From: Acetobacterium sp. KB-1 | GTDB taxonomy: Bacteria; Bacillota; Clostridia; Eubacteriales; Eubacteriaceae | DNA length: 64,000 bases | Direction of reading: 5' to 3' | NCBI RefSeq assembly: GCF_003260995.1 | Contig: NZ_CP030040.1 | Span: 3,596,109 to 3,660,108 of the forward strand | Part shown: positions 6,025 through 25,013 of the stretch, piece after piece | How positions within the stretch are numbered: the stretch's first letter is position 1 | How the letters are laid out: each line of letters starts with the position of its first letter | Notes under the pieces: model-generated | The model's input: the letters and a program-made list of their open reading frames with translations, nothing else | Told to the model about the DNA's origin: nothing | Database searches by the model: none | Program-made: the position numbers and the translations under genes

Positions 6025-6166
6025 GAAAAAAAGAGTAAAACGTGTCGTAAACATGTCGCATATCACACATAAATGTCTATTTTAAGCCATTTACCTACTG
6101 TTTCGTAATCAGTAGGTCGGGGGTTTGATTTCCCCCGCTAGCTCCAGTAAGAAATAATATTTAGTT
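6025..6166 (+). repeat. tRNA-Thr(CGU) 3'-half scar, copy 1
   Basis: Bases 6094-6146 match the 3' half of a tRNA: anticodon arm with loop TTCGTAA (anticodon CGT), variable loop AGGTC, T arm around TTTGATT, acceptor strand CGCTAGC, discriminator T and CCA. No 5' half precedes it. Instead, 6025-6090 carries a block with GTGTCGTAAACATGTCGCAT that also precedes copies 2 and 4. Such 3' halves are left when elements integrate into tRNA genes. The gap 5952-6371 otherwise holds only the terminator and ISL3 end listed below. Confidence 0.7.
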
Positions 6167-6198
6167 AAAAGAATGGCTTTAATTAGCGATTCTTTTTT
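6167..6198 (+). terminator. Terminator attached to scar copy 1
   Basis: AAAAGAAT (6167-6174) pairs with ATTCTTTT (6189-6196), extended by GC/GC inside, and is followed by a T tract. It corresponds in position to the hairpins after scar copies 2, 3 and 4, so it is probably the original tRNA terminator carried along. Confidence 0.7.
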
Positions 6199-6332
6199 AT
6201 TTTTTTGATTTTACTCTTCACCTAAAAGTATGACCGATTGATAAAAATCTAAAAACTCTGTAAGCGCATAAATACAAGGTGCCACAAAAAATAAAAAAGA
6301 ACCGGAGCTAACTGGATATTACGGGGTGGCGG

Positions 6333-6359
6333 GGTTCTTCCGCAAAAACCCGTCTATTA
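6333..6359 (+). repeat. Solo ISL3-family terminal repeat
   Basis: GGTTCTTCCGCAAAAACCCG followed by TCTATTA matches the left end of the ISL3-type element at 16523 almost base for base. No transposase or right end is found nearby; the group II intron starts 12 bases further on. It is probably a decayed element end. Confidence 0.6.
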
Positions 6360-6926
6360 GTAAGCGATTCAGTGTGTCATGAAGGATTCAGGAAAGTGGA
6401 AAGGAGGGAAAGTAGAAAATCTGAATTCTTGCTTTATAAGAGATGAGAGCAGGCCTCTCGAAATCAACATTCAGGTGTGGGTTTCAAACCACCTTTGGGT
6501 GCTATAACCAAAAGTTATGGTGCTGAGCGCAAACGGAAAAGGCTGAATAATCAGTCAGGTGTGTGCCATGTAGCTGAACGAAAGTGAAGAGACCGAAGAA
6601 GCATCGTTAATACTAAAATGCAGTCAAAACCAACCGTTTTGAGACATAGTTGGGATTAATCTAACGGAAACCTGATTACTGGTCAGATGGCTGCCGGTGT
6701 ATAGCTTCAGGAGCATGGCATAGGCTCTTATAAGGAACAGAATAATCCTGAATGATAATGCTAAGCGAAAAATCCAAGCAGCAAAATGACAAGGATGAAA
6801 GTAGCGATGAATCATTCAGGTGCGGAAGAATTCGTAGTAGTGATGAAATTCCTGTAATGGGAAGGGAGCGAAGGGATTCTGTTATCTATACTTCAAAAAT
6901 AGAACAACCGGAAATGGGAGGATTTT

Positions 6927-8171
6927 AGGCAAGAAGGAAAGTCGTTTCAAATTTCAAAATATCAAATATTACAGGCCTACAAATGTGTAAAAGCAAATAA
7001 AGGGGCAGGTGGGATTGATGGAATCAATTTCGAAAAATATGAAAAAGATCTGAAGAACAATCTTTATAAATTGTGGAACAGAATGTCTTCTGGCAGCTAT
7101 TTTCAAAAGCCAGTAAAAGGTGCGGAAATACCAAAGAGAAATGGGGAAATGCGGCTATTGGGAATTCCGACGAATGAAGACCGCATTGCACAAATGGTTG
7201 TACGGTTGACGTTTGAACCCATCGTAGAACCCATATTCTATGATAACTCGTTTGGTTATCGACCAAACCGTTCTTCAATCAATGCAGTTGCCATAACACG
7301 TGAACGCTGTTGGAAAATGCCATGGCTGATTGAGTTTGATATTGTAGGACTTTTTGATAATATTGATCACACAAAGATGATGAAAGCAGTAAAATGGCAT
7401 ACCGATGAAAAGTGGGTCATTCTTTATATTGAGAGATTTCTTAAGGCACCAATAGTGATGAACGATGGAGAATTAAGAGAAAGGTCATTGGGTACATCGC
7501 AAGGTGGTGTTATTAGCCCGGTTCTTGCAAATCTGTTTATGCACTATGCATTCGACACATGGATTAGTAGAAAATATCCTCAAAATCCATGGGTGTGTTA
7601 TGCTGATGATGGTGTCATACACTGTCAAAGCGAACAGGAAGCATTCAATTTGTTGGAATACCTAAAGAAAAGAATGTTAGAGTGCGGTTTGGAAATCCAT
7701 CCGTATAAAACGAAAATAGTTTACGGCCGAAGTGATCGTTATAATAAACGATATGAAAATGAATCGTTTGATTTTCTGGGTTATACGTTTAGAAGAAGAT
7801 CTGTCAAAAGCAAAAATGGAAATTTCTTCAATGCCTTTTCTCCAGCGGTAAGTAAAAGTTCTGCGCAGAACTTCAGAGATAAAATCCGAAAAATAAGAAA
7901 ATCATGCAAAACAAGTTCACTGGAATCACTGGCTGAAAAGTTAAATTCGATTATTTGAGGATGGATGAATTATTTCACAAAATTCTGTTCCAGAGAAGCA
8001 CGAAAAGAAATTGATTATGTAAATAAGACACTCGTACAGTGGTTAAAGAGAAAATATAAAACAGTCAAGAAAAGCAAAAGAAAAGCCTGGCGAATGTTAG
8101 TGCATTTAGCCAATTCAAAAACTAAACTCTTTTATCATTGGGAGGAGGGTATCAAACCAACGATTGGATAA
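6927..8171 (+). pseudogene. ltrA: Group II intron reverse transcriptase/maturase
   Basis: Reverse transcriptase that splices and mobilises the intron. RT motifs are clear: KANKGAGGIDG, EIPKRNGEMRLLGIPT, FGYRPNRSS, LIEFDIVGLFDNIDH, GTSQGGVISPVLANLFMHYAFD, the catalytic YADD (VCYADDGVIHC) and SFDFLGYTF. An in-frame TGA at 7956-7958 stands where the maturase region normally reads RGW (CGA to TGA). It separates residues up to LNSII from GWMNYFTKFC. The reading frame opens without ATG: GGGAGG is followed five bases later by AGG at 6927, which looks like a mutated ATG. Translation from ATG 7071 would lose the first RT block. The enzyme is therefore very probably inactive. Confidence 0.8.
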
Positions 8172-8174
8172 CAA

Positions 8175-8208
8175 GAGCCGTATGACGCGAGAGTGTCACG
8201 TACGGTTC
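8175..8208 (+). ncRNA. Group II intron domain V
   Basis: A 34-base hairpin, GAGCCGTA paired with TACGGTTC with a GCGAGAGTG apical part, matches the catalytic domain V of group II introns. It lies three bases after the maturase stop, as expected. Confidence 0.85.
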
Positions 8209-8248
8209 TGTGAGAGACTTGGGGTGAAATCCCCCTTGCCTACTCGAC

Positions 8249-8575
8249 AAAGAGGGCGTAGTGTAAAACAGGTCGAATTATTGTAGACTAACCTGAAAGA
8301 ACGAACGTTCAGGAGGTTAAGGATACAATGGACGAAACAAAATAATGCTATGGTGTCATTTCAGAAAATCACTAACAATAAAAGTCGGTAATAACGGTCA
8401 TTAAATGCGGATCAAAAATATTGTCAGTAAAATTGACATATTAAATATTCATATGTTAATCTATAAACATAGGTATCTTTGCGTTCAGGATATGGAATTT
8501 GAGAAGTTAAAATAGGTTGTTTGAATTCGATGATTTCATACAAATGCCAAAATTTAAGTGATTGGAGAAATTCTC
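8249..8575. other. Region between intron and BspA-like gene
   Basis: No real gene is visible. A strong AGGAGG at about 8312 precedes a five-codon frame (ATG GAC GAA ACA AAA TAA), possibly the beheaded start of a lost gene. CCTGAA and TTCAGG at about 8290-8313 form a short inverted repeat. GGAG before 8576 serves the next gene. Confidence 0.35.
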
Positions 8576-11500
8576 ATGAACAACAAACGATTCTATTGGT
8601 GCGTCTTTTTTGCAGTATTTATTTTATCGATGCCGGTAACTGTTTTGGCGGTTGAAAACCCGGTGGCTGTTACCTACCGGGGGCACGTTCAGGATGTTGG
8701 TGATGTCCCGGTTGATGGCAGCTGAGTGGAGGGTCCGGAAATCATCGGAACCGTCGGTCAGTCCAAACGGATTGAGGGCTTTGAAATCAAACTGACCGGG
8801 GAAATACCGTCCGGTCTAGAGCTTCGCTATAATGTTCACGTCCAGAACAAGGGTTGGCTTTATGATGTAAACGATACCACGTCCTGGCCGAAAGATGGGG
8901 AATACGCCGGCACTCGGGGGGAAAGCCTCCGGATTGAAGCCATTAAAATCATCCTGGCCGATGCTGACGGTCAATCGGTTTCCGGTTACAGCGTTTTATA
9001 CCGGGGCCATGTTCAGAATATCGGGGATCTGCCGGAAGATGCAAGCCAGTGGATTAAGGATGGTGAGCAACTCGGTACTGTCGGAAGTTCCCTGCGGCTG
9101 GAAGCCCTGATGGTGAAAGTTGAGAAAAACGTAATCGAACCGGTGGTTTATGACACAGCTGGCACTTATGGGCAGGAAACAGAAACCCAGAGTATCGAGG
9201 GCGATGTGAAAATTTGCGCTGATGGGGTGATCCTCCAGAATCTCTTAATTCAGGGGGATTTGACCATTAGCGAAGCTGTTGGGGATGGTGATGTTACCCT
9301 GAATAACGTAACGGTAGAAGGTGACACCGTGGTTCGCGGCTGTGGTATCAATAGCATTCATATCAATGGGGGCAGTTACAAAAAAATTACCGTGGAGACA
9401 ACCCCCACTGGACAGGTGCGGATTGTCGCCCTTGATCTGAACGGCCTGGAAGTGGTGATCTCCGAAGATGCTGAAGGACAGGTGGTGCTTCTGGAAGGTC
9501 AATTTGACAGTGTGACAGCGAATGCCCCCAATATGAAATTGACCACCCAGGGGAAGGACACGTCCATCGGCAATCTGACGGTGGGAAGTGACGCAGCGGG
9601 ATGCACAGTGACCCTGAATAGCGGAACAACAGTGGATGACCTGGTACTGGATGGAACGGCTGCGGTGAAAGGCGAGGGGAAAGTACATCGAGCAGAAGTC
9701 AATGCCGATGGGGTTATCTTTGAAAAAGCCCCGGATTCCCATACCGTGGACCCGGAAGTGGTTATCCCACCGGTGATTCCGTCAACGGATGGCGGTGGTG
9801 GCGTCGTCGTTCCGGTTGCGGTCACGGGGGTGAGTTTGAACAAAACCGTTGCCACTGTCAATAAAGATGGTGCAGAAACCCTGACGGAGACAGTCGCACC
9901 GGCTAATGCTGCTAATAAGGCAGTCAGCTGGAGCTCAGATAATGAGAGCATTGCTACCGTGGATACGGATGGCAAGGTGACTGGTGTTGCTGAGGGCATG
10001 GCGATCATTACGGTTACCACCGCTGATGGTAATAAAACCGCAACCTGTACTGTCACAGTAAAAGACCTGAATCCGGCAATAACCGGCGTGACCCGGCCTG
10101 TTTATGAGGCAATAGCGGAGGCTGCCATTGATGAAACCGCTCAATATTCGGGAACCATTCAGTGGCGCGTAAAAGATGGGGACTCGCTGGCAGCTGGAGG
10201 TGCCTTTGCAGCATCAACGACCTATGTAGCTACCATCACCCTGACTTTGAAAGCCCCCTATACCACAGCGGATATCTCGGCGGATTTCTTTACAGTGACA
10301 GAGGCAACAGTCAGCAATGCGGCTAATTCGCTGGAAGTAATCGCGGAGTTCCCGGCAACCGGTGACGCTCCTCTGGTTTCAGTCACCGGGGTGAGTCTCA
10401 ACAAAACTAATCTCACACTTAATAAAGCTGGAGAAGAAACACTGACAGCGACGGTCGCACCGGCTAATGCAACGAATCCGGCAGTCAACTGGAGCTCAAA
10501 TAATGAGAGTGTTGCCACGGTGGATACCGCTGGCAAGGTGACCGGTGTTGCCGAAGGCACGGCGATCATTACTGTTATGACTGCTGATGGTGGAAAAACG
10601 GCGACATGTAACGTCACGGTTAAAGATCTGAAAGCGGATATTGCGGGCGTGAACCAGCCTTATTATGGGGCAACAGCAGATTCCATCATTGATGAGACGG
10701 CCCAATATACCGGAACGATTGCATGGCGTGTAAAAGATGGATCGGCTGTTACAGCAGGTACCTCCTTTGCGGCCTCAACGACCTATGTGGCCACCATCAC
10801 CTTGACCTTGAAAGACCCCTATACCACAGCAGACATTACAGCGAATTTCTTTACGGTGGCAGGGGCAACAAGCGTCAGTAATGCCGCCAATTCACCAGTT
10901 ATTACCGCGGAGTTCCCATCAACCGGAGTATTTCAAATTAATGGTGCAGGCATGATCACTGCCTACGCTGGAGCTGGTGGCGATGTGACTATTCCGGAGA
11001 CAGTGGGGGGAATTGAAGTAACTGGTATTGGCGTCAATGTATTCAGGTCAAAAACCGCCCTGACAAAGATTAGCATTCCGGCTAGTGTCACGTCGATTGG
11101 TGACAGTGCGTTTAGAGCATGCAGTGAATTGACTACGGTAACCTTTGCCGAAAATGCGGCGCTGACAACCATTGATGGCGGGGCCTTTTATGAATGTGCG
11201 AAATTGGGATCTATCACGATTCCCGCAAATGTACTGACGGTTGGAAATAGTGCCTTCAGGGCGTGTCCGGCATTGGCCACGGTGACTTTCGCCGGGTCTG
11301 CAGTTCAAACCATTGGTATTCAGGCCTTCGATGGCAGTAAATTATTGACAGCGATTGCCATTCCGGAAGCGGTCACGTCAATTGGCGAAAAGGCATTTTA
11401 TGATTGTGAGCAGTTGGCCACAGTAACCTTTGCCGCAAATTCGTCACTGCAAACGATTGGCAATCAGGGCTTTGCCGAATGCAGTGCGTTGCCCGGGATG

Positions 11501-12775
11501 GCTGTCCCTGCTAGTGTCACGACGATTGGCAATAATGCCTTTCAAAATTGTACAAGTTTGACTACGGTGACTTTTGCTGCGAATTCAGTGCTGGCAACCA
11601 TTAGTCCAGCGACCTTTATTGGCTGTAGTGCGCTGACAGGGATTACCATTCCCGAAACGGTTACAACCATTGGTAAAAATGCCTTTCAAAACTGTACAAA
11701 CCTAGCGACGGTGACCTTTGCTGGTACATCGAGGCTCTCAGCGATTGAAATCGAGACTTTTGACGATTGTACATCATTGACAGGGATTACCATCCCTGCC
11801 AGTGTGACAGCGATTAAGGATAATGCTTTTTATAATTGCACAGGGCTGACTACGGTAAGCTTTGCCGGAACGCCAACACTTACAACCATTGGAAGAGAGT
11901 CTTTTTATAACTGTATAGCGCTGACTGGGATTGAAATCCCTCAAAGCGTGTCTTCGTTTGGGGGTTGGTCCTTCCAAAACTGTACAAATCTGACCACCGT
12001 AAGCTTCGCCGGGACGCCAACAATAACAACTTTTGGTAATGGTGCGTTCCGAGATTGTTCGAAATTGGCCACCATCACAATTCCTGAAACCGTCGCAACA
12101 ATTGGCTTGTATGCGTTCGAGGGGTGTACAGCAGTGGGAACCATCACGATTCCAGAAAAAGTCACGAAAATTGATGACTATGCTTTCCAAAACTGTGCCG
12201 GATTGACCACGGTAAGCTTCACCGGGACCTCAACGCTAAACCTCATTGGTCTAAATGCTTTTGAAAATTGTACATCGCTGAGTGCCATGACAATTCCTGA
12301 AACGGTTACGACAATTAAATCGCATGCCTTTGACGGATGTACCGTTTTAGAGACGGTGACCTTTGCCGGGACTTCACAGATTACAACCATTGCTGAATAC
12401 ACGTTTAATGACTGCCAAGCGCTGACATCAATTACGATTCCAGCAGCAGTAACATCAACGGGGAATTACGCCTTCCAAAATTGCATCAATTTAACTAACG
12501 TGAGCTTTGCCGAGACTGCGACGTTTGCAACTATCGGTGCTGCAACTTTTAAAAACTGTCAAGCGCTCAAAACCATCACCCTGCCAGAATCAGTGACCTT
12601 GATTAATGATAACGCCTTTAACCTTTGTACCGGATTGACTATCACATTTAAAGGCAATGCCCCAGCAGTAGGAACTACGCCCATCCCAGCCGATACCGTC
12701 ATTTACTATTACGACGGTAAGACCGGATTTGATACGGCCTATTGGACAAGTTTTAATCCAATCAGAATTACCTGA
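8576..12775 (+). pseudogene. BspA-like leucine-rich-repeat surface protein with ChW and Big_2 domains, interrupted by TGA
   Basis: The gene starts at ATG 8576 with a signal peptide (NNKRFYWCVFFAVFILSMP, then VTVLA) and a first ChW repeat. An in-frame TGA at 8723-8725 replaces the hallmark tryptophan: compare ASQWIKDGEQLGTVG in the third repeat with GS-stop-VEGPEIIGTVG. The frame then stays open for 1349 codons from GTG 8726. It covers two more ChW units, a beta-strand-rich region (9160-9700), two Big_2 Ig-like domains (about 9820-10065 and 10380-10625), each followed by a repeated ITGV...STTYVATITLTLK module, and about twenty BspA-type leucine-rich repeats (11030-12660; ITIPxxVTxIGxxAFxxC). 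Without readthrough the large part lacks a signal peptide. G+C is higher than in the neighbours. Confidence 0.8.
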
Positions 12776-12781
12776 GATGAT

Positions 12782-13270
12782 ATGTCAATAAAAACGCCCC
12801 ATGAAGGATGTGAAGCATGGGTATTAGACGGTGGCAAACAGCGAAAGGCTACTCTCTACTCAAATAAGGAGCGCCATATCATCGTGTCCTCGGATTTATT
12901 GGAACTTTATCGTCGATATGATAAGCTGGCCGGTACTCGAGAATGGTTCTTTCAGCGAACCGATAGCATCCCTTATGATACCGGGTGGATGACAAAGCAC
13001 TTCCATCTTTGCTGGGACAAAAGTGGTCTCGTAAAACACGTAAATCCCAGACCGTATGACCTTCGTCACGCTTTTGCCAGTCACAACATCATGCGTTGGG
13101 TTGATGAAGGGCGGGATGTCATGTCAATGCTGCCGTATCTCAGCACCTATATGGGGCATTCCAAATTCAGAGACACCCTTTATTATGTGCACATCCTGCC
13201 GGAAAGGCTCCGCAAATCTGCCGGAATAGATTGGAGCCAGTTCGATACCATTTTCAGGTACGATGAATAA
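12782..13270 (+). pseudogene. Truncated tyrosine recombinase (RitB-like C-terminal half)
   Basis: The 162-residue product has the C-terminal catalytic half of a tyrosine recombinase: RPYDLRHAFASHN (H-x-x-R type box) and YMGHSKFRDTLYYVHI with the nucleophilic tyrosine. The N-terminal core-binding domain and first catalytic arginine are missing, since family members have about 300 residues. It begins six bases after the BspA-like gene ends, suggesting an insertion or deletion junction there. It overlaps the next recombinase by 8 bases. Adjacent overlapping recombinase genes are typical of recombinase-in-trio elements. Confidence 0.7.
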
Positions 13271-14324
13271 AATGCGTAAAGTTAAGGATCCTGAATTGTT
13301 CTGTTTAATCAAGAAATTCCTTGGCAGTTACCTGCTCTCTATCCGGCAGAGAAGCGATAACACGGCTGACTCATACCGGTATGCATTAAACCTGTACCTT
13401 GCATATGTCCAGGAAAAGCATAATAAAGCTCTTTCAGAAGTCCTGTGTTGTGACTTTTCATAAGAAAATATCCACGGATTCATGGAATGGCTGAAAAACG
13501 AAAGAAATAACGAATGCACCACTATCAACCAGTGGTTGCCGCATTTACGTACCTTTTGCGAATATCTCCATAAGAATGGAAAAATCGCCTATTCCGACCT
13601 TAGTGATATTGCTCTGATTTCGCGAATTAAGGATCAGCGTAAGCAGGAACTGATCTGCCTTAGTATTGAGCAGACAAAGCTTGTCATCAAACAGCCTGAC
13701 ATTATGAAGAAAACCGGCAGGAGGGACAGGTTCTTTATCGCATTGCTTTATGACAGCGGATGCCGAGACCAGGAACTCCTGAATCTCAAGGTGAAAGACT
13801 TTGCCATCACAAAGAATAATGATGCTGAAATCCGCATTCTGGGAAAGGGTAAGAAATATCGCGTAACTCCTATCAGTAGCGAGGTAGCAAGGCTGTTTAG
13901 GGAATACTGTAAGGATTATCATCCTGATACGGAGGAGTCCCAGGACAGGCTACTTTTCTATACCGTTCGTAATGAACTCACGGCGGAAATGTATGCTGAC
14001 AATGTCCAACGGTTCATGAAAGTGTATGAAAAATCAGCCCAGTGTGTAGAGCGGACATTGCCACATCTACATCCGCATCTTTTCCGACATAGTCGAGCGT
14101 TGCATCTGTACATAGCAGGCGTTCCTTTACCTCTCGTGGCTGAATGGCTTGGTCATTCAAATCAGGAAACGACACTGATTTATTATGCACAGGCCTCTCT
14201 GGAGATGAAGAGAAAAGCGGCGTCAAAACTGGCAGATGATGATAAATCTGTTTTCAGGGAAGATATCACTTTCAAATATGCCGATGACGAGAAAATTCTG
14301 AAAAAGCTCAGCGGCCTGAAATAA
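13263..14324 (+). pseudogene. Tyrosine recombinase (RitC-like) with in-frame TAA
   Basis: A site-specific recombinase of about 353 codons. The N-terminal SAM-like core-binding domain (KDPELFCLIKKFLGSYLLSI) runs to an in-frame TAA at 13461-13463. The same frame continues to 14324 with all catalytic boxes: GCRDQELLNLK (Arg), LHPHLFRHSRA (H-x-x-R), LGHSNQETT (His) and YYAQAS (Tyr). An internal ATG at 13482 would give a 280-residue protein without the first domain. Overlap with the upstream recombinase and a palindrome three bases beyond the stop fit a RIT element. Confidence 0.75.
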
Positions 14325-14326
14325 GT

Positions 14327-14427
14327 TATGCCGACAAATGGATAAGGGGTACTTCCGCATGCTTATGATATGGTATCCCTCATATCCATCCTTAAAAATA
14401 TCGGCATAATTGAAACATCGGCATAAG
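14327..14427. repeat. Imperfect palindrome at the recombinase element end
   Basis: TATGCCGA (14327-14334) pairs with TCGGCATA (14401-14408), with further pairing inside (ATGGATAAGGG against CCCTCATATCCAT). TCGGCATAA is repeated at 14419-14427. Coding sequence of an IS4-type transposase begins at 14432, so this probably marks the right end of the recombinase element. Confidence 0.6.
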
Positions 14428-14431
14428 GGCG

Positions 14432-14789
14432 ATTGAGGTTTTTTTCAAAGTATGCAAATCCTATCTGAAACTGACAAAATCCTTTAGAGGGCTGTCTTTT
14501 GATGCCCAGACAGCCCTATGTTGCCATTGTCTTTACCCGCTACACAATGCTATCACTGGAAAATCGGTTTAACCTTGATGTGCGCAGCATCGGGGAATTG
14601 TTCTACTGGACATGTGATGAACTGGCTGATATCACTTATCAGGAGTCTTATCTTCTATTGATTGAGCTGATGTTGAGTATTTGTCAGGATATTCTTCAAC
14701 TTAGTGAAGAAAAAATGTCTATTCTGCTCGATCAGTTTCTTCAAAATTTACCGGCAATGATAAAAAGTAGTCTCAAACCCTGTGCCTGA
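14432..14789 (+). pseudogene. IS4-type transposase, C-terminal remnant
   Basis: The start reads IEVFFKVCKSYLKLTKSFRG, then LSFDA, in one frame. After a frameshift near 14505-14515 it continues YVAIVFTRYTMLSLENR and FYWTCDELADITYQESYLLLIEL in the next. Together these match the C-terminal third of IS4-type DDE transposases, including the conserved glutamate region IEVFFK. The rest of the gene is missing, and the recombinase element abuts it directly, probably by insertion. Confidence 0.65.
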
Positions 14790-14866
14790 ATGGATCTTTT
14801 TCAGGAAAAGTCCTTTGCATCAACGTTTGAGCGTGTTTTTAATGTGCGAAGTTTGAGTTAGTAATT

Positions 14867-16425: not shown

Positions 16426-16522
16426 TATAAATGAAAGTCATTTACCGCAAAAGAAGAATTAGCTAAAGACCGTAAAAAATCTATAATGTTGGCAAGACTA
16501 TTTGAGTATTCCGACGATTTAG

Positions 16523-16807
16523 GGTTCTTCCGCAAAAACTCGTCTATTAAACTATTTATAAAACCTGAAGTGATATAATAAAAGCACCAAATAAATTGAA
16601 AGGGTGGTAAAAGCTGGAAAAAGATCTCGAAGCAATTGAAAATGTTGTTATCAGTGATTTATCTAATGGATTTGTTGAAGGGGTCAACAACAAACTTAAA
16701 ATGATAAAACGAACCATGTATGGTCGGTGTGGTCAAAAATTATTGACGGCAAAATTGATATATGATCCACATTCGAAACCCGGATAACGGGTCTTTGCGG
16801 AAGAACC
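16523..16807 (+). mobile_element. Internally deleted ISL3-family element (285 bp)
   Basis: Inverted repeats GGTTCTTCCGCAAAAACTCG at the left and its near-complement (ACGGGTCTTTGCGGAAGAACC read forward) at the right bound the element. Inside lies only the last 57 codons of an ISL3 transposase. No clear 8-base target duplication flanks it. The stretch 16426-16522 before it has a coding-like frame (FTAKEELAKDRKKSIM...) that stops at the insertion. In 16808-17014 after it I see no gene. Confidence 0.7.
16614..16787 (+). pseudogene. ISL3 transposase C-terminal fragment
   Basis: The frame reads LEKDLEAIENVVISDLSNGF, then VEGVNNKLKMIKRTMYGRCG, matching the C-terminal SNGFVEG-x-NN-x-K-x-IKR block of ISL3-family transposases, which contains the last catalytic acidic residue. 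There is no start codon and the rest of the gene is deleted. Confidence 0.75.
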
Positions 16808-17014
16808 TTCTCCAGTCGGAATATACACCGTAATCATGATTGTGTGATTTCGGCAATCCAGGGTAGTGTAAATTATTTTGTGTTTTCGTGATTTTTAGAT
16901 TAATGAAAAATACAAAAATGAAAAATTCTATTACAAACTATAAATGCTAATCTAAAAGTGAACTACTTTTAAAACAAACGCTCACTTGAAAATGAGCCAC
17001 TTTGATATTGCAAA

Positions 17015-17683
17015 ATGAATGATTTATCAAAAGAATCTGGTGTTTTTAGAAGTGGTGTTGTTGGTATATTTGCAGGCGATCATCTGGTTCATATGGCTCC
17101 ACTGGCTAATCAGGTTCCACATTTGATGAAAGATCTGTTTATCTGGGCAAAAGAAGCAGAAGTACATCCATTAATTAAAAGTTGTGTTTTCCATTACGAG
17201 TTTGAATTTATTCATCCGTTTGCCGATGGAAATGGACGGATGGGGAGAATGTGGCAAACATTGCTACTTTATAAGTGGAAACCACTATTCGGTTGGCTGC
17301 CAATTGAAACACTCATTAGGGAACGTCAGGATGAATATTACAAAGTGCTTGGAGAATGTGATCATCGGGCAGATTCAGGACAGTTTGTTGAATTCTTATT
17401 AGAAGCAATTTATAATGCGCTGAATGATGTTTCTAACACCGGACAAGTGACCGATCAAGTAACCGAACAAGTTGAAAGATTACTAAATGTGATCGGCGAC
17501 AACGCTTATTCTACAAAAGAATTAATGGAATTATTAAGTCTAAAGCATCGACAAACCTTTAGAGATAATTATTTATTACCTGCACTGGAAAAAGGATTGG
17601 TTAAAATGACAATTCCAGATAAACCAAATAGTAGCAAACAAAAATATAAGAAAACAATCAGACCGAGTGAGATGGATTTCTAG
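17015..17683 (+). pseudogene. Fic-family protein, N-terminally truncated
   Basis: Fic proteins transfer AMP or related groups to target hydroxyls. The catalytic motif HPFADGNGRMGR (near residue 68) is intact, as is the upstream GVFRSGVVGIFAGDHLVHMAP flap region. A winged-helix-like tail (STKELMELLSLKHRQTFRDN) follows two TDQVTEQV repeats. Full-length relatives have about 330-370 residues, so about 120-150 N-terminal residues, including the usual inhibitory helix region, are absent. The apparent ATG at 17015 lacks a good ribosome binding site. If expressed, the protein could be unregulated, but decay is more likely. Confidence 0.7.
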
Positions 17684-18163
17684 TGGAAATCATGGGCTCA
17701 ATTATGTTGATTTTTGATTTTAGGTATCAAATTATTATTTAATTCAGAACTGTTCAATTTTATTTTCAATGATATTATCATACTCACATATCGGGGGGGC
17801 GGACATAAAGTTGGACACTACATGAACCCGTAAAGGTGTTAAAGTGTATGTATTCAAAATATCAAAAGACTTGATGTCTAAAGTGATTTATATCAATTGT
17901 CACCACAAACCGATACAGGTCGCTATCTCCAGTAAAATGATTAGAGTTTTGAAAAAGGAATGCCTCTAAAAAACCATTATTTTTGTATTTAAATTATTTG
18001 CGTCCATTAAATTAGTCACCTTGACATTGGAATGGTAACCCAAGTAAAATAAGGCTCTGAATCGTCGGAATACTCAGGTAGGGGTAGGGTACGCCAAGGG
18101 CACAAAAGTATCGAGCCATTTTCTTCTTTCCGATTACGGTTTATGAATAGAGCATTCAGCATG
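17684..18163. other. Intergenic region with repeat B
   Basis: No gene is seen. Bases 17866-17930 repeat the block at 4305-4362 upstream of the first AbiEi gene. From 17926 the text (ATCTCCAGTAAAATGATTA...) follows that after scar copy 3 at 20749, so this is probably a further, degenerate attachment scar. GGACATAAAGTTGGACAC at 17801-17818 resembles an IS3-type end but stands alone. Confidence 0.45.
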
Positions 18164-18205
18164 TATACTTTCGTACTAATAATGCTTATAATATTAGTAT
18201 GAAAG
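18164..18205 (+). promoter_or_regulatory. Second abiE promoter/operator
   Basis: TATACT (18164-18169), 17 bases, TATAAT (18187-18192). The same 14-base inverted-repeat arms as at 4457-4494 occur at 18168-18181 and 18192-18205. The -35 differs by one base from the first copy. Confidence 0.65.
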
Positions 18206-18216
18206 GAAGTGGAATC

Positions 18217-18689
18217 GTGAAACAATATGAACGGCTGGATAAATTGATGGCCGATCATGACGGCATTGTTCAAACTTCGCAGGTTGTTGCCGAAGGAATT
18301 TCCAAACCTGTATTTTATGATTATATTAAAGAGAAAAAACTGGAACAGGTGGCCCATGGCGTCTATGCTTCAGCGGATGCCTGGATCGATACGCTGTATC
18401 TGATACATCTTCGCAGTAAACAAGCTGTCTTTTCGCATGAAACCGCTTTGTTTCTTCATGATTTGACGGACCGGGAACCAGCTCCCTATTCGATAACAGT
18501 TAAGACTGGCTATAATCCCAACCGGCTGAAAGCCGATGGAGTCCAGGTTTATACGGTTAAGCCCGAGCTTCATGGAGTAGGCTGCACAACTGCTCAGACG
18601 TCCTTTGGACATACGGTTCCGGTTTATGATATGGAAAGAACCATCTGTGATCTGATCCGCAGCCGCAAAGGGATTGAAATCCAAACCTT
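18217..18689 (+). pseudogene. abiEi: AbiEi antitoxin, second copy, 3' end deleted
   Basis: Starts at GTG 18217 (KQYERLDKLMADHDGI). From about 18247 to 18663 it appears identical base for base to the first copy, including MERTICDLIRSRKG. Homology ends at 18689, where a deletion fuses it to the middle of an AbiEii gene in another frame. The reading frame runs on as junk to 18879. It lacks the C-terminal 35-40 residues. DNA binding to its own operator might persist because the N-terminal winged helix is complete. Confidence 0.75.
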
Positions 18690-19226
18690 GGTATCAGGAT
18701 CAAAATGGTGGGCGTTATCGCCAATACTAAAACACCATTCGATATTGACATTGGCGATGTCATTATACCAGATGCGGAAAGTAGAAAAATTGGCGTACAG
18801 ATCAGTGGGTTTGAATCACCAAATATTTTCACTTATTCTCTTGAATCAACAGTTTCAGAGAAATGGGATGCAATCATAAGTCGGATGGAAACTACCAGTA
18901 GAATGAAAGATTATTATGATATCTATTACCTGGCAGACCATTACGATTTTGATGGAAAAATACTGAAGGATGCGCTTTTGAATACATTGAGCAATCGAAA
19001 AACTATTTTTGATGAAACCACGATTGTAAAAGTATCAGATATGTATAATGACGATGATATGCAAAAAAGATGGAAGTCATTTTCCAGGAATTCATTGGAA
19101 ATTGATCTGGAATTTAAAATTGTAGTTGATATGGTTGTTCAATTTATCGGAAAGCCGATGAATGCAATCATTAAGGAAGAAGATTTTTCTGAAGATTGGT
19201 ATTCAAAAGATAGAACTTACAAATGA
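18690..19226 (+). pseudogene. abiEii: AbiEii toxin, C-terminal remnant of a different subtype
   Basis: From GGT 18690 the frame reads GIRIKMVGVIANTKTPFDID, then IGDVIIP, IFTYSLESTVSEKWDAIISR and TTSRMKDYYDIYYL. This matches the C-terminal half of AbiEii nucleotidyltransferases, parallel to SILVEKLETIISR and TRMRDFYDIHSL in the first copy. The sequence is clearly divergent from that copy although the adjoining antitoxin is nearly identical. The N-terminal catalytic half with the DxD motif is deleted, so it cannot be an active toxin. The internal ATG 18705 is not preceded by a ribosome binding site. Confidence 0.75.
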
Positions 19227-19279
19227 GAATAAGACGGTGAATTCTTATCGCCCGAAATGATTGATGCGAGGTGAGATAA

Positions 19280-20524
19280 GTGAAATATGTTGAACTATTG
19301 GAAAAATACGAGGAATTATTGAGTGAAAACAAAAAGTTAAAAGCAACAATAGCGGATCTTAAATCAACGATCGCTGAGGAATCCACAGTTAACGGTATTG
19401 TTAAAGAAGCAGAAAATTTAACAAACGCTGAAGATACAATTGGTCTAACAAAAAAGAGTTCAACGTAGGAAAAACTTGATTTATTTCTATCGGTTTTCAG
19501 AGGCAGAACTGACGTTTGTGCCAAACGGTGGCGAAATAAGCCAGGCTATTCACCATACTGCTTTAATGACTTCAAACCAGGCATCTGTAATAAACCCCGG
19601 ACAAAGTGTACGGAATGTAAGCAAAGTAATTTTGCGTCACTGGACAGAAAACAACTGAAAAAACACTTGTTAGGGACAGAAAGAACCAGCCATATCAAAC
19701 AATTGGTTGAGCTTCAAAGTGGCAAAACCGTAAATGTTATTGAATTATCAGGCAATTTAACGGCGAAGAATAGAAAAAAAGCGGTGGAGAGTATCAGGGC
19801 AATTAAAAGTGGCGAAAAGTACGTGATTATCGCTACCGGAAAGCTAATTGGCGAAGGCTTTGATGAAGCAAGATTAGACACTTTATTTATGGTCATGCCA
19901 ATTGCGTGGAAAGGAACGATTGCTCAATATGCCGGACGACTTCATCGGAATTATGAAGGTAAAAAGGAAGTGCTTATCTATGACTATGTTGATGTCCATA
20001 TACCAGTTTTGGAACGAATGTATCATAAACGGTTAACGGCATACCGATCATTAGGATACAGTATAAAAACCAGTAGCAGTACGTCTGATCTTGAAAATGG
20101 TATTTTCGATGAATCAAATTATTTTGATTATGTATTGAAGGATATTGAAAGGGCAAAAAAAAATGTGTTAATTTCAAGTCCATATCTGCAGAAAAAGAAA
20201 ATTGAAAAAGTGAAAGACGTGCTTTTAAAAACATATTCATCAGGAATACGAGTAACCTTATGCACCAATGAAATTGTGGCTTTTCCAGATAAGCAAATGA
20301 ATTATATCAAAGCGATTATTGAAAAAATAAGCGGAAAAGGAATTGATGTGATTCAGATAAAAAATAACCGATATCGGTTCATGATTATTGATAGTAGAAT
20401 TGTCTGGTATGGCGGTATCGATATTCTGGGGAGATGCTTAAATGAGCAATCTTTAATTCGGATTGATAATGGGGCATTGGCAAATGAATTGACTGGTATT
20501 ATTTATGAACATATCAGTCAATAG
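19280..20524 (+). pseudogene. TOTE-type primase-helicase remnant with nonsense codon and large in-frame deletion
   Basis: The remains of a large helicase of the kind found in TOTE conflict systems (primase plus SF2 helicase, normally about 900-1000 residues). The frame opens at 19280 with a coiled coil (KYVELLEKYEELLSENKKLK). It hits TAG at 19466-19468, then continues with the signature FRGRTDVCAKRW and the cysteines of CNKPRTKCTEC. After HLLGTE it jumps, in frame, to the C-terminal helicase lobe: ATGKLIGEGFDEARLDTLF (motif V region) and QYAGRLHR (motif VI). A phospholipase-D-like tail (ISSPYLQKKK, RYRFMIIDSRIVWYGG) ends the frame. The primase and the Walker A/B lobe are gone. Domain identification is from memory of the family. 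Confidence 0.7.
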
Positions 20525-20754
20525 ATTAAAATACTTACTCCCGGGTGGCATTGCATGATAATCGGTTGGAGATCACCTTGCCAGGGAGGCTGTTGGATGA
20601 GGTTTCCATAAAAAAATAGGCTTAGATAAGAAAGTATATGAAGACAAAAAATGATGGTTGGCATTTTGTCTTTATCGTTCGTATAATGTATGCCCTAGAC
20701 CTACTGATTCGTAATCTCAGTAGGTCGAGGGTTCGATTCCCCCCGCTAGCTCCA
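20525..20754 (+). repeat. tRNA-Thr(CGU) 3'-half scar, copy 3, with leading intergenic DNA
   Basis: Bases 20700-20754 carry the anticodon arm (with a two-base TC insertion before TCAGTAGG), AGGTC, the T arm GAGGG-TTCGATT-CCCCC, CGCTAGC, T and CCA. The GTGTCGTAAA block of copies 1, 2 and 4 is not present upstream. Bases 20525-20699 contain no gene. Confidence 0.65.
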
Positions 20755-20774
20755 GTAAAATGATTATATTTTTG

Positions 20775-20812
20775 CAAAAGGAATGTCTTTAAACAGCCAT
20801 TCCTTTTGTTTT
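20775..20812 (+). terminator. Terminator attached to scar copy 3
   Basis: CAAAAGGAATG (20775-20785) pairs perfectly with CATTCCTTTTG (20798-20808), followed by TTTT. It is the strongest hairpin of the four scars. Bases 20813-20996 after it show no gene. Confidence 0.75.
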
Positions 20813-20996
20813 AAAATTGTTTTTGTACATTAATCACTTACCATTAACATCAATGCTACGCACTCCACGTGCTTTGAGGATTTAAAGAAGATGCTTGATC
20901 AAGTTTATATCCCCTTGGCGGCGGAGTATGTTTATAACTAAAATTTGAGTTTTACATGATAATCTATATTTTACCAATACTTTTGTTCATGTTGTT

Positions 20997-21815
20997 TTAC
21001 CTGCTTTTTTCCGAGCGGGCAAAAAGAAAGGTACCGATCATCAAACAAATCACGGTCAACACGACAATGGCGGTAAAGTTCACCACGGGATTAAATAATA
21101 CAACGCTTGCGTATTCCGGAGTTCCAGCGTAGACCACCGCGCGAACCAGGTCAAGGCAGTATGTCATCGGCATGGCATGGCTTAAGACATACAGAATGCC
21201 ACTGGAGTTATTAATTGGAATGATCGCTCCGGAAAGAAACATCTGCGGCATGGTGATAAGCATCACAGCAGTATTGGCTGTCTTATTGCTTTTGATAACC
21301 CCGATGATGATCATTGCCAGAGCGCCGCCGGAAAGGCACATCAGCGGTGATAGGATGAGAATCATCAGCAGCTGTCCGGGATTCAGGGTAATTCCCATGA
21401 TGATCCCAACAATTAAGGTGCCGGCCATACTGATAATAGCACCAAAGGATGAGCCGAAAATTTTACCGATCACGATCGAATAGCGCGAGACCGGAGAAAC
21501 CAGCATCTCCTGAGTAAAATCCGTGGTATGGTCTTCGACCAATGATGTCATTCCCATGGTTGTGACCATAAAAAGCATATTAACCATCATACCGACCATC
21601 ATAAATTTACTGTAATCGAAACGGAGTCCTCCCGTCATATTCTCAGCGAGGCTGCCGCCCAGCATCCCCATCATGATCAATGGCATGGCAAGACTCGTAA
21701 AAATTGTACCGGGTGACCGGAGTGCCAGAGTTATGTCCCTTAGAGCGATCGTGATAACGGCATTGATTTCTCGTTTGACTCTTGATTTTCTATTTGTCAA
21801 TGAAATTTCAGTCAT
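20997..21815 (-). CDS. ABC-2 type transporter permease
   Basis: Membrane subunit of an ABC exporter of the DrrB/ABC-2 type, 272 residues. About six hydrophobic segments are visible, for example TIFTSLAMPLIMMGMLGG, FMMVGMMVNMLFMVTTMGM and TAIVVLTVICLMIGTFLF, with the conserved EMLVSPVSRYSIVIGK loop after the second. Its start overlaps the upstream ATPase stop by 4 bases (ATGA), so the two are co-translated. The exporter is the probable target of the adjacent two-component system. The substrate is unknown; drugs or peptides are typical for the family. Confidence 0.85.
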   Translation of the reverse strand: MTEISLTNRKSRVKREINAVITIALRDITLALRSPGTIFTSLAMPLIMMGMLGGSLAENMTGGLRFDYSKFMMVGMMVNMLFMVTTMGMTSLVEDHTTDFTQEMLVSPVSRYSIVIGKIFGSSFGAIISMAGTLIVGIIMGITLNPGQLLMILILSPLMCLSGGALAMIIIGVIKSNKTANTAVMLITMPQMFLSGAIIPINNSSGILYVLSHAMPMTYCLDLVRAVVYAGTPEYASVVLFNPVVNFTAIVVLTVICLMIGTFLFARSEKSR

Positions 21816-22753
21816 GCTGCACCTGCCGTTTTGTTAATGTAATCCACATATGCGTCTTCCAGTGATGGCTCTTTAATTTCCAATACCGTCAGTTTGGTTT
21901 TAAGTTTGGAAATAATTTCCTGCGGCGTTCTGTTCTGATAAGGAACGATGATATGCGTATCCTTTTTATGTAACAATCCCAGCTCCGAAAGTTCACTCGT
22001 CAAGCTTATCCGGTCTTCGGCATCCAGAATAATTTCCTTGCGTAGCAGACTTTTTTTCATTTCCTCCGGCGAGCAACAGCTGGCAATCTGTCCTTTATTA
22101 ATAATGCATACCTTATCCACATGCTCAGCCTCGTCGATATAGTGTGTGGTTAAAAAAACCGTTGTCCCGTATTCTTTGCGGACATTATTAATGTATTCCC
22201 ACAGACTTCTACGGCTTACCGCGTCCAGTCCCTGCGTCGGTTCGTCAAGAAACAAAACGGCCGGTGTGTGCATGAGACTGCGGATAATCTCCAGTTTGCG
22301 TTGCATGCCGCCCGACATCTTTTTGACGGGCTTAAAGATGGTATCCCGAATTCCGACAATCTCGGCGAGTTCCATGACACGATTTTTATATTCTGCGGGC
22401 ATAAGCCGAAAGGATGGACGGTAACTGTACATCCCATATAAGCAAGCATGGAAGCGAATATTTTCCTCCGCTGAGAGCTGTAGATCGAGGCTGGGCTTTT
22501 GGAAGATGATCCCTACCTTATCCCGTACCTGCTTTGCTTCTTTTTCAATGTCATAGCCGGCAATCATTACGATGCCAGAAGTTTTGGACAATGTAGTGGT
22601 CAGGATCGAAATAGTGGTGGTTTTTCCGGCTCCGTTGGGACCGAGGAAAGCAAAAAACTCGCCTTCATCCACCGCAAAACTGACCCCCTTGACGGCCGGT
22701 GCTTTTGCTTTGTCATATTGTTTTATCAGATTTTCTACTTGAATCATCGACAT
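21812..22753 (-). CDS. ABC transporter ATP-binding protein (DrrA-like)
   Basis: Cytoplasmic ATPase of the exporter, 313 residues. Walker A is GPNGAGKTT, the Q loop is IIFQKP, the signature is KKMSGGMQRKLEI, Walker B is AVLFLDEPTQGLD and the switch histidine is in FLTTHYIDEAEH. The C-terminal 90 residues form the extra domain typical of drug-export ATPases (EIILDAEDRISLTSEL...IKEPSLEDAYVDY). The ATG at 22753 has AGGAGG upstream. It is the first gene of the transporter pair, 100 bases downstream of the histidine kinase on the same strand. Confidence 0.9.
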   Translation of the reverse strand: MSMIQVENLIKQYDKAKAPAVKGVSFAVDEGEFFAFLGPNGAGKTTTISILTTTLSKTSGIVMIAGYDIEKEAKQVRDKVGIIFQKPSLDLQLSAEENIRFHACLYGMYSYRPSFRLMPAEYKNRVMELAEIVGIRDTIFKPVKKMSGGMQRKLEIIRSLMHTPAVLFLDEPTQGLDAVSRRSLWEYINNVRKEYGTTVFLTTHYIDEAEHVDKVCIINKGQIASCCSPEEMKKSLLRKEIILDAEDRISLTSELSELGLLHKKDTHIIVPYQNRTPQEIISKLKTKLTVLEIKEPSLEDAYVDYINKTAGAA

Positions 22754-22853
22754 AAAAATAACCTCCTGTTTATTTACTTCGAAATTAGTTTAACAAAGTA
22801 ATTTAAACACAATATAAATGGCATTTAAACACAATGTAAATGCGAAAAAAAGT

Positions 22854-23927
22854 TTATCGGTCTTTGATGGAAAGCAACTTCGGCAGGGTGATCGTAAATG
22901 TTGTGCCCTTATTGATTTCGCTTTGCGGAGTAATTTGACCTTCATGCAATTCTACAATTTTTTTAGCGAGAGAGAGTCCGAGTCCGTTACCGCCGAGAGC
23001 CCGGTCGCGGGATTTATCGACCTTATAAAAGCGCTCAAATATATGGATCTGGTCTTCCGACCGGATACCGATACCGGTATCGATAATCTGACAGCACACC
23101 TTTGTTTGATCGGACGTCAATATAACGTGAATCATTCCACCTTCCGGCGTGAATTTTATAGCGTTATGGAGAAGATTCACCCAAACTTGAGACAGCAACC
23201 CCTCGTCGCCCTGGATTGATAATCTTTCCAAATCCACTTCCATCACAATATGCTTGGTGCTCCATTGTGGCTCTAACATCAGGGCAACATCCTCTAACTG
23301 CTTGTCGAGCCTGAATTCGATGAAGGATAAAGGTTCACCTCCAGTTTCCAGCGCTGATAGCTTCAGCAGATTATCACTTAAAGCGGACAACCGTTTGCTT
23401 TCGGTTTCAATGATACCTAAATAGCGATTTTTTTGTGCAGTTGTTAGGGTGTCGCTTTTTAATAATGCGGCAAAACCGCTGATGGAAGTCAGCGGAGACT
23501 GTATCTCGTGAGATACGTTGGAAATAAAATCCTGTCGTAGCTGTTCCATCGTGCCAAGTTCTTTCGCTATTTTATTGATTCCCTCCACCATATCGTTGTG
23601 GTGGTACTCATCCCAAGTCTCGATAAAGACGTCGAAATCCCCTTGGGCAATTCTTGTCATAGCGTTTAGTAATTGATTTTGCATAACATGATGCTGCTGG
23701 ATACCTTTTGAATACTTACTAGCGATTAATCTGGAAACGGATGCCACACATATAAATAAAATCATGCCAACGAGTCCTGAAATAATATGAGTCCAAAATT
23801 CCGAAGGCGTGCCGGTCCAGTGGTAAATCATAACTGTAATGCCATACCCGGCGGCAAAAGAACAGCCAAAAGTAAAAAAAAGTAAAGCTACTGAAATTGC
23901 GGCAGGAGGTCGTTTAGTCTGTTTCAT
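22854..23927 (-). CDS. Sensor histidine kinase
   Basis: Membrane sensor kinase of 357 residues. Two N-terminal membrane segments are present (AISVALLFFTFGCSFAAGYG and HIISGLVGMILFICVASVS), then a HAMP-like stretch and the H box FISNVSHEIQSPLTSISG with the phosphorylated histidine. The N box is VWVNLLHNAIKFT, the G1 box IIDTGIGI, the F box IFERFYKVD and the G2 box GGNGLGLSLAKKIV. Its start overlaps the response-regulator stop by 4 bases. The extracytoplasmic loop is very short, so it probably senses within the membrane, as kinases controlling drug-export ABC genes often do. Confidence 0.9.
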   Translation of the reverse strand: MKQTKRPPAAISVALLFFTFGCSFAAGYGITVMIYHWTGTPSEFWTHIISGLVGMILFICVASVSRLIASKYSKGIQQHHVMQNQLLNAMTRIAQGDFDVFIETWDEYHHNDMVEGINKIAKELGTMEQLRQDFISNVSHEIQSPLTSISGFAALLKSDTLTTAQKNRYLGIIETESKRLSALSDNLLKLSALETGGEPLSFIEFRLDKQLEDVALMLEPQWSTKHIVMEVDLERLSIQGDEGLLSQVWVNLLHNAIKFTPEGGMIHVILTSDQTKVCCQIIDTGIGIRSEDQIHIFERFYKVDKSRDRALGGNGLGLSLAKKIVELHEGQITPQSEINKGTTFTITLPKLLSIKDR

Positions 23928-24601
23928 GAGACCACCTCCAACCGGTATCCAAGACCCCGGATGGTGGTAATTTTAAAACCGGTCTGTTGCTCCGGAAAAC
24001 GATCGCGCAATCGGTTTACATGGACGTCTAACGTCCGTTCGTTTCCCTCAAAATCAACGCCCCAGATATCTTCAATCAATCGGTTGCGGGAAAATGTTTT
24101 ACCGGGAAAGCTTGCCAGCTTGAAGAGCAATTCAAATTCCTTCATCGGAATATCTTCATGTAAGCCATTCATTGTGATGCTGTGGCGGTTTCTATCGATC
24201 GTAACATTGCCGATCTGGATTATCTGGGATGCTTAAATTTTATAACGCCGCAACAGCGCCTGAACGCGTACGACCAATTCATCGCCTTCAAAAGGCTTGG
24301 TCAGATAATCGTCGGCGCCAAGTCCGAAGCCTTTTACCTTGTTTGCGAGCTCACCTTTGGCCGTCAGCATTAAAATCGGCATGTTTTCGTAATAAGAACG
24401 CAAATGACGACAGAGCTCAAAGCCGTCCATGTTCGGCATCATGATGTCGATAATTGCCAGATCAGGGTTATCAATATCGATATTTTGTAGCGCTTCATGT
24501 CCGTCTGCTGCCTCGCATACTTCAAATCCGTTGTTTTGAAGCAAAGCAATCACAAGTTCACGGATGTTTGAATCGTCGTCAACAATCATAATTTTACTCA
24601 T
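23924..24601 (-). pseudogene. OmpR-type response regulator split by an in-frame TAA
   Basis: The receiver domain starts at ATG 24601 after GAGGTG (SKIMIVDDDSNIRELV, phospho-acceptor in LAIIDIMMPNMDGFELC, MLTAKG, KPFEGDELVVRV). It ends with TAA at 24233-24235 in the linker after LRRYKI. The same frame then continues as the linker ASQIIQIGNVTIDRN and a complete winged-helix domain (MKEFELLFKLASFPG, FSRNRLIEDIWG, RTLDVHVNRLRDRF, TTIRGLGYRLE), stopping at 23924. Only the receiver would be made from the proper start; internal ATG 24172 could yield part of the DNA-binding domain. Apart from the stop the gene looks functional, so the loss may be recent or an error. Confidence 0.8.
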
Positions 24602-24865
24602 CTTTCATCACCTCTTCTAAATTGTATCATACCGATTTAAACGGAGATTAAACGAAGCAAAAAAATTGCAACTTTTGATTATTTCCTAATGTGGTGATAT
24701 ATGAGTGTTACAACTTCATTGTACCATTGCACAGCTTTATTATAACCTTGGTGACTACTTTGTGTGTTGAAATTGCTGGAGATGTCTATTATGAAAAAAG
24801 TATACAGCGAATAAGAGTACTTTGAAGCGTCAAAACGGCAGATAAAATTGGTATTACAAGTATTC
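24602..24865. other. Intergenic region upstream of the response regulator
   Basis: This A+T-rich stretch holds the promoter region of the minus-strand two-component operon. I see no gene and no confident -35/-10 pair. It forms part of a 670-base gene-free stretch (24602-25271) with scar copy 4. Confidence 0.35.
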
Positions 24866-24973
24866 TAAAAAAAGATAAAAGTGTCGTAAAGATGTCGTAT
24901 ATAAAGAATTGATGGCTTTAATAAGCCGTTTTATTGCTGATTCGTAATCAATAGGTTGGACCTGCCAGTCCAG
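24866..24973 (+). repeat. tRNA-Thr(CGU) 3'-half scar, copy 4 (degenerate)
   Basis: A GTGTCGTAAAGATGTCGTAT block (24881-24900) precedes an anticodon arm with CTGATTCGTAATCA (24936 onward), but the T arm is mostly lost, leaving AGTCCAGTAAAAATA. The order block, linker, anticodon arm, CCAGTAA, terminator matches copies 1 and 2, so this is a decayed member of the same series. It is also the outer edge of the accessory zone. Confidence 0.55.
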
Positions 24974-24990
24974 TAAAAATAGCACAAGTG

Positions 24991-25013
24991 AGCCGTTTTA
25001 TCGGCTTTTTTTT
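24991..25013 (+). terminator. Terminator attached to scar copy 4
   Basis: AGCCG (24991-24995) pairs with CGGCT (25002-25006) around TTTTAT, followed by eight T. After it, 25014-25271 holds only the leader of the lipoyl gene, with a TATAAT at 25174-25179 lacking a clear -35. Confidence 0.7.

Follow-up and report, generated by a model that had tools for sequence, protein, structure and literature searches.

Results

The tRNA-Thr(CGU) gene and its 3'-half scars in Acetobacterium sp. KB-1

The stretch analysed here, in the following called the window, comprises 64,000 nucleotides of Acetobacterium sp. KB-1 (genome G000, a single contig of 3.99 Mb; window G000:C1:3596109-3660108, window positions being preceded by w) and contains repeated copies of the 3' half of a threonine tRNA gene, tRNA-Thr(CGU), which we term scars. 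An earlier note on this DNA had listed four of them, and all four are present on the + strand, at w6093, w14935, w20699 and w24935. Copy 1 (w6093-6146) consists of ACCTACTG and the tRNA 3' half up to the CCA and was recovered, like copy 2 (w14935-14988), by both pattern and profile search. Copy 3 (w20699-20754), a pattern match, carries a 2-base insertion in the anticodon arm. The degraded copy 4 (w24935-24972) was found by nhmmer with E=0.0098 and 15.6 bits, compared to a best match of E=3.7 in one shuffled set of the same stretches. Where a scar is named by a single position, w6102, w14944 and w20708 denote the TTCG core and w24935 the match of the profile hidden Markov model.

The earlier note had suggested searching the genome for a threonine tRNA gene with this 3' half. 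One with an identical 3' half, an intact tRNA-Thr(CGT) gene, lies at 3586425-3586500, 9.6 kb upstream of the window and on the same strand as the scars, and heads the array. The array is larger than the four copies had indicated, starting 9.6 kb before the window and comprising seven scars downstream of the intact gene: two between this gene and the window (G000:C1:3589662 and 3593726), the four copies already listed and a newly found partial scar (CGCTATCTCCAG). Together with the left-end block that follows it and is like that after copy 3, the latter occupies w17921-18010 (+ strand; 82% identity over 90 nt to w20744-20833), and a similar left end, compared by eye, follows a scar at G009:3450226. 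A 25-base pattern of the tRNA 3' end, allowing up to 3 mismatches, matched at 6 places in the whole genome, intact gene included; all 6 are in this array and on the + strand, and the reversed control gave 0. Within the window, ARAGORN called no complete tRNA. With an intact tRNA at one end and same-strand repeats of its 3' end at the island borders, the locus has the arrangement of serial tRNA islands.

The site and its integrases in related genomes

We searched a set of 19 genomes of the genus, one per species, which includes A. bakii (G001), A. fimetarium (G002), A. paludosum (G004) and A. tundrae (G014); genome G017 is presumably A. woodii (DSM 1030). The site pattern occurred in all 19 genomes and at two or more places in 14 of them, amounting to 58 places in all, with a control of 0. 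In other genera of the family, it was found in 2 of 21 genomes, once each. The site set used below consists of 60 tRNAs or scars in extracted stretches, 16 of them intact tRNAs, and 5 further places added by profile or by hand.

Among the matches listed, tyrosine integrases are encoded directly after the tRNA or scar in several relatives, on the opposite strand and facing it. These left-end integrases fall into three length classes of approximately 360-374, 395-399 and 461 aa, and the one member of each class that was scanned with Pfam had a catalytic domain and a SAM-like N-terminal domain. We counted 32 segments between neighbouring scars on one contig, of which 7 encode a full-length integrase, 3 a remnant (33 residues in one case) and 22 none; in this count, the segment G002 4194-67350 was covered in part and the partial scar at w17921 was not taken as a border. 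The integrase-less segments are 3-35 kb long.

One of the integrase-bearing elements, G017:C1:1272442-1343469 (71 kb), encodes a 360-aa integrase, a MobA/VirD2-type relaxase, a TraG-type coupling protein, a VirB11-type ATPase, a TraG/VirB4-type ATPase and ParB, as judged from scans of 10 open reading frames (ORFs) and the integrase. By these features, the element between the attachment (att) repeats is an integrative and conjugative element (ICE). A phage nature was rejected, as PHROGs gave no structural genes and Pfam gave conjugation genes among the 10 proteins scanned with each.

In the KB-1 genome, the statement of the earlier note that no integrase is left intact held: none was found in the 6 scored segments out of 6. 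Since an own intact integrase beside the tRNA end is the mark of ICEs and of integrative and mobilizable elements (IMEs), the segments were classed as neither. A genome-wide search with one integrase of each length class as query likewise revealed no intact cognate integrase. The genome has four PF00589 matches, of which two fall in the array and the others at 577939 and 1611972. The two in the array belong to a broken tyrosine recombinase set (w12782-14324, + strand) of a 162-aa ORF (E=1.2e-4), a 280-aa ORF (E=8.8e-28) and a 66-aa ORF, which lies away from any left end. The 280-aa recombinase (w13482-14324) was considered as the integrase of the array and rejected, because it is located at the far end of its own segment; in addition, its N-terminal-like ORF is separate, a fragment of another recombinase lies beside it and it does not cluster with the left-end integrases. 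The 343-aa frame at 577939 is weakly similar to the integrases of the site (best E 5.5e-7). The match at 1611972 belongs to a C-terminal integrase remnant of 173 aa (G000:C1:1611881-1612463) with 84% identity over 167 residues to the 461-aa class, so that an element of this class has left a trace about 2 Mb from the array.

Attachment ends of the segments

The core of the site is ACCTACTGNTTCGTAATCAGTAGGT, an inverted repeat spanning the anticodon loop. The right end of a segment carries the direct repeat TGTC[GCT][TC][AG] twice, with a spacing of 11 bases, at offsets of -60/-49 or -61/-50 relative to the core. Of 44 scars, 22 have both repeats and a further 7 have one, and 0 of the 16 intact tRNAs has either of them at these offsets. 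In the window, they correspond to a block, GTGTCGTAAA, that lies at constant distances ahead of the core in copies 1, 2 and 4, with the repeats at w6043-6060 (TGTCGTA / TGTCGCA, TGTC at -59/-48 from the core), w14885-14902 and w24882-24899, all on the + strand. The earlier note had read this block as the possible tail of an integrase gene. The block is real, but its start in copy 1 is some 90 bases beyond the stop codon of an AbiEii gene (w5951), and the integrases are located at the opposite, left end, and the reading as an integrase tail was thus rejected. It is instead a pair of direct repeats, whose position and repetition suggest integrase arm-type sites.

The same motif occurs three times approximately 130-170 bases inside the left end in all four elements with a 360-374-aa integrase, and the left-end block is conserved between integrase-bearing and many integrase-less segments. 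After copy 1, the left-end block of the next segment (w6147-6262, + strand, by alignment), composed of a hairpin (w6145-6206, fold z -3.43) and t2-type sequence, is cut off before the left arm repeats. Both ends of the ICE of G017 carry TGTCGCA repeats. Right-end types lacking the arm pattern bound those segments with 461-aa and 395-399-aa integrases for which both ends could be observed. A stricter arm code, in which the letters match within each segment, was dropped: the G017 ICE and some other segments conform to it, but neighbouring segments of G017 do not.

The terminator that the earlier note had placed after each of the four copies was borne out as a hairpin fold better than shuffled sequence in all four (z -3.43, -3.73, -4.03 and -2.95 for copies 1 to 4) and less so by a stricter terminator consensus scan, which flagged two of them. 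The hairpins lie at w15009-15036 after copy 2, w20774-20809 after copy 3 and w24990-25007 after copy 4, all on the + strand, the first and last of these three being those flagged. The total of the strict scan over the region, 18, was not above that of shuffles (15.9 +/- 4.2), and the hairpin after the intact tRNA gene of KB-1 was no better than shuffles (z -0.46).

A truncated gene was observed just inside several integrase-less left ends (G001:C77, G002:80187, G003:C19, G004:391675 and G014:5244). This gene (c23) looks like the end of a DinB-type polymerase, a full-length relative of which is encoded near the right end of the G017 ICE. Its assignment as a serine recombinase was rejected, since the sequence reads, by eye, as the C-terminal half of a DinB-type polymerase (417-aa relative).

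Integrase-less cassettes common to several species

The 3 kb on either side of each scar were compared among the extracted genome stretches. The cassette t4, which starts at G000:3589662, recurs in G005, G008 and G009; between G000 and G009, both of them single-contig genomes, the identity is 97.2% over 3,536 aligned bases beginning inside the scar, compared to 80.0% over 7.5 kb for the core flank left of the tRNA. The cassette t3 recurs in G001, G002, G005 and G011, with 98.6% identity over 3.2 kb between A. bakii and A. fimetarium (core flank 72.3%) and 97.6% between G002 and G011 (core flank 74.4%). The left edge of the shared cassettes is exact, as identity begins in or directly at the scar. 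The sequences to the left of them are unrelated, apart from pairs in which both belong to the tRNA locus itself or both represent one type of right end. No integrase was found at the left end of t3 or t4 in the genomes examined. These results indicate that the integrase-less cassettes moved as units, most likely as cis-mobilizable elements (CIMEs). The cargo between scars differs among related genomes, and the variation in cargo that the earlier note had expected among relatives was accordingly encountered, across species.

A right edge equally exact at the scar was not borne out, as the shared stretches end short of the scar or elsewhere. In A. fimetarium, the scar that ends t3 in G005 falls in a stretch missing relative to the HGW bin, and the AbiE stretch that follows is again similar, with 95.9% identity. 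Matches in HGW-Firmicutes-3, considered as a sign of spread outside the genus, were not counted as independent, because they include a contig that agrees with the HGW-Firmicutes-4 bin at 100% identity over 7.3 kb. To the right of one scar (G001:C77; G002:C33 near 80187), A. bakii and A. fimetarium are 100% identical over 3 kb, with a core flank of about 72%; this stretch reflects either a very recent transfer or contamination.

T stems of the scars

The T stem was compared in 36 readable scars with a known host tRNA, 10 scars without a known host tRNA and 3 unreadable ones being left out. It differs from that of the present tRNA of the host in 20 and is the same in 16. Among the differing stems, Watson-Crick pairing is complete in 14, mispairs occur in 5 and a single G-T change is seen in 1 (w6102). 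In A. bakii, the tRNA has the T stem GGGGG/CCCCC, and all 8 parsed scars have GGCGG, paired with CCGCC in seven of them. These differences fit a replacement of 3' halves by incoming elements.

AbiE genes beside the right ends

The segment ending at copy 1 carries, inside its right end, genes for an AbiEi antitoxin (w4488-5099, + strand; PF13338, E=1.1e-6) and an AbiEii toxin (w5169-5951, + strand; PF08843, E=8.7e-37), the latter 154 bases before the core. In a tblastn search with two AbiEii proteins of the window as queries, 9 of 49 scars had AbiEii at most 400 bases upstream, a number that rises to 11 at distances of up to 1.5 kb; 32 scars had none nearby, and 6 lie on contigs too short to tell. 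PF08843 gave 56 matches in the 19 genomes, fragments included, or approximately 1 per 1.2 Mb, and simple arithmetic thus predicts about 0.01 scars with AbiEii this close where 9 were observed, the scars not being independent of each other. The result is an association, and the copies are of shared ancestry rather than independent events. In Streptococcus suis, AbiE affects ICE stability, and AbiEi binds the oriT and affects excision and copy number (PMC11062541). By analogy, the AbiE genes beside the right end probably stabilise the segments.

A second, truncated pair in the window (w18199-19226, + strand; PF13338 and PF08843) is chimaeric and includes a 95% repeat of w4409-4708: the start of its AbiEi is 95% identical to the copy at w4488, and a different, truncated AbiEii follows. 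In G017, the same module of AbiE and a DUF4143 ATPase was observed at two right ends (1351630-1352949 and 1393114-1394349 of G017:C1), which are 98.9% identical over the 3.1 kb before the scar, pointing to a recent duplication or a double insertion.

Discussion

Serial insertion and its alternatives

The array is very probably a record of serial, tandem, site-specific insertion at the single tRNA-Thr(CGU) gene of an Acetobacterium. This reading is based on the intact tRNA with the same 3' half that heads the array, on the left-end integrases of relatives and on the cassettes common to several species. It agrees with the repeated island insertion at one tRNA gene proposed in the earlier note, to which the relatives add integrases and an ICE-like element at the site. 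In the mechanism we propose, a tyrosine integrase would catalyse recombination between the core ACCTACTGNTTCGTAATCAGTAGGT of an element and the anticodon arm of the tRNA gene. With the incoming element would come a fresh 3' half, so that the tRNA stays intact, and the old 3' half would end up as a scar on the far, downstream side of the element; repeated insertions would then yield the array. Most segments have lost the integrase, some keeping the right-end arm repeats and some also the left-arm block, and the integrase-less segments would be CIMEs, which may be moved by other integrases or by neighbouring ICEs in trans. The segments of KB-1 are best described as CIMEs, integration genes being absent from all 6 scored segments; the left-end block and the arm repeats match those of integrase-bearing elements, from which the segments may derive. 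Activity of the array at present is an inference.

Several observations weigh against this reading or narrow it. In KB-1, a single segment, the one between 3593726 and w6102, has arm repeats at both ends, the others having them at one end or neither, and most of the segments in this genome are therefore probably dead. In the integrase-less neighbours of the G017 ICE, the left arms read TGTCG and the right arms opposite them TGTCC. The viral contigs of IMG/VR gave no exact match to the core. The shared right edges are off the scars, as the t4 stretch of G000 and G009 ends inside AbiEii in G009 and the t3 stretch common to G005, G001 and G002 ends, in G005, some 440 bases short of the scar. Moreover, G005 and G008 are metagenome bins and G011 is 85% complete, which makes binning errors possible; HGW-Firmicutes-3 and contig C205 of G005 (HGW-Firmicutes-4), bins of one study, share 7,270 bases at 100% identity, probably by a mix-up in binning. 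Finally, the variation of cassettes is read across species, from one genome per species.

A different origin of the extra copies, in which segmental duplication and homologous recombination within the array predominate and an AbiE-plus-scar block is copied along the chromosome, would account for the 180 nt that copies 1 and 2 share at 82%, for the AbiEi repeat (95% over 300 nt) and for the two nearly identical right ends of G017 (3.1 kb at 98.9%). We consider it quite unlikely as the main process, since the copies have several different types of right flank, even within one array, and the scars carry differing and mostly fully paired versions of the T stem. Nor would duplication yield left-end integrases in relatives or cassettes with unrelated left flanks in different species. 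It is also conceivable that the scars were kept for a function as tRNA-like RNAs or terminators and are no leftovers of recombination, given that a hairpin follows each of the four and that copy 1 has retained an anticodon arm and a T arm able to fold. This is highly improbable in view of the damage to copies 3 and 4, of several mispaired T stems and of a window devoid of complete tRNAs; similar hairpins also follow the intact tRNA in relatives, where they are the left ends of elements.

In a third alternative, every segment would have brought along an integrase of its own, which was later lost, and would have been immobile since. The worn state of the KB-1 array, with its degraded and partial scars, split AbiEii of segment 2 and broken recombinase set, speaks for such dead fossils, as does a genome in which the only close relative of the site integrases is the C-terminal remnant of the 461-aa class. 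But t3 has no left-end integrase in any of the four genomes, in two of which the contig ends inside t3, and it has the same left edge in all of them and an identity of 97.6-98.6% where the three comparable core flanks have 72-74%. Independent identical losses are less likely than a transfer of the integrase-less unit, so that this alternative is unlikely as a general account, and the copies of KB-1 itself may still be dead now. A bolder extension of serial insertion sees in the locus a cassette platform shared by the genus, on which integrase-less cassettes with a standard attachment end of two arm repeats, core and terminator would be swapped between species by the integrase of any resident ICE. 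An AbiE pair beside the attachment site would serve both as a lock and as an addiction module, and AbiEi, bound near the site, would control excision. We regard this extension as speculative and rather improbable.

Relation to known systems

The nearest precedent is the set of ssrA islands of Dehalococcoides (PMC3146451), which likewise are tandem islands after a single small-RNA gene, with repeats of the 3' end of this gene at their borders and integration genes next to attL in some of them. In that system, 15 islands are without an integration module, and the authors suggest that these might be cis-mobilizable elements. The systems differ in that the serine recombinase DsiB and ssrA are involved there (PMC3146451), whereas the array described here is associated with tyrosine integrases and tRNA-Thr(CGU), has three length classes of integrase at one site and often has AbiE at the right end. 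CIMEs are elements without integration and transfer genes that have kept attL and attR and are stacked in tandem with ICEs (PMC5704250). The pattern of the array corresponds to a tandem accretion of CIMEs as defined there, with the differences that kinship between segment and ICE rests on the left-end block and the arm repeats in our case and that the array is longer than an ICE-CIME pair. Clusters of attC sites lacking integron integrases (CALIN) are alike in outline, being cassette arrays that depend on an integrase elsewhere (PMC11389934). The array was not classed as CALIN, as its site is by sequence a tRNA 3' half and not attC and its integrase-less segments measure 3-35 kb. The ICE of S. 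suis resembles the array in having an AbiE pair on an integrative element (PMC11062541), but here AbiE adjoins the attachment site of integrase-less segments, and an identical role is our proposal by analogy.

Judged by their titles, none of the papers listed in literature searches deals with this tRNA-Thr(CGU) locus. Tandem tRNA islands are already known as a kind of hotspot; what goes beyond the ordinary is the occurrence, across species, of cassettes without integrase that are exact at the left scar. Acetogens of this genus are used in gas fermentation. Every genome of the genus examined has the integration hotspot, with a readable record of insertions, and integrase-less islands common to several species with a scar-exact left edge make mobilisation in trans directly testable. 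The hotspot also ties a toxin-antitoxin system to a place beside the attachment site.

Cargo of the array and further observations

From the tRNA onward, the segments of the KB-1 array are 3.2, 4.1, 8.5, 8.8, 3.0, 2.8 and 4.2 kb long. Cargo was named from Pfam scans of 20 chosen ORFs of the array, unless stated otherwise, and no transfer genes were found among these 20 proteins, which are a part of all array ORFs. Segment 1 encodes an AAA_14/DUF4143 ATPase and an rve-type transposase, and segment 2 an AbiE pair with AbiEii spread over two ORFs (the second part by tblastn) as well as, by reading without a scan, hydrolase- and phosphoribosyltransferase-like ORFs. Segment 3 carries IS21-type genes, a ChW/beta-helix surface protein and the AbiE pair described above, and segment 4 a reverse transcriptase, a BspA-type protein with leucine-rich repeats and the broken tyrosine recombinases. 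Beyond segment 4 follow an AraC regulator, Fic, the chimaeric AbiE pair and a helicase-C ORF, whose PLD-like match was under the Pfam cut-off; ABC and two-component genes, again named by reading and not by scan, precede copy 4.

Large surface proteins of the ChW/BspA-like kind are a recurrent cargo in several species (cluster c12, 10 ORFs), with sites at w780-4055 and w8726-12775, in G009 after 3414462 and in G017 at 1343469-1353451. The motif GGGTTCTTCCGCAAAAAC and inverted copies of it were observed at w6332-6359, w16522-16549 and w16787-16823 and in G017 after the scar at 1343469; these repeats resemble the termini of a small insertion sequence, which would have inserted itself into more than one left end.

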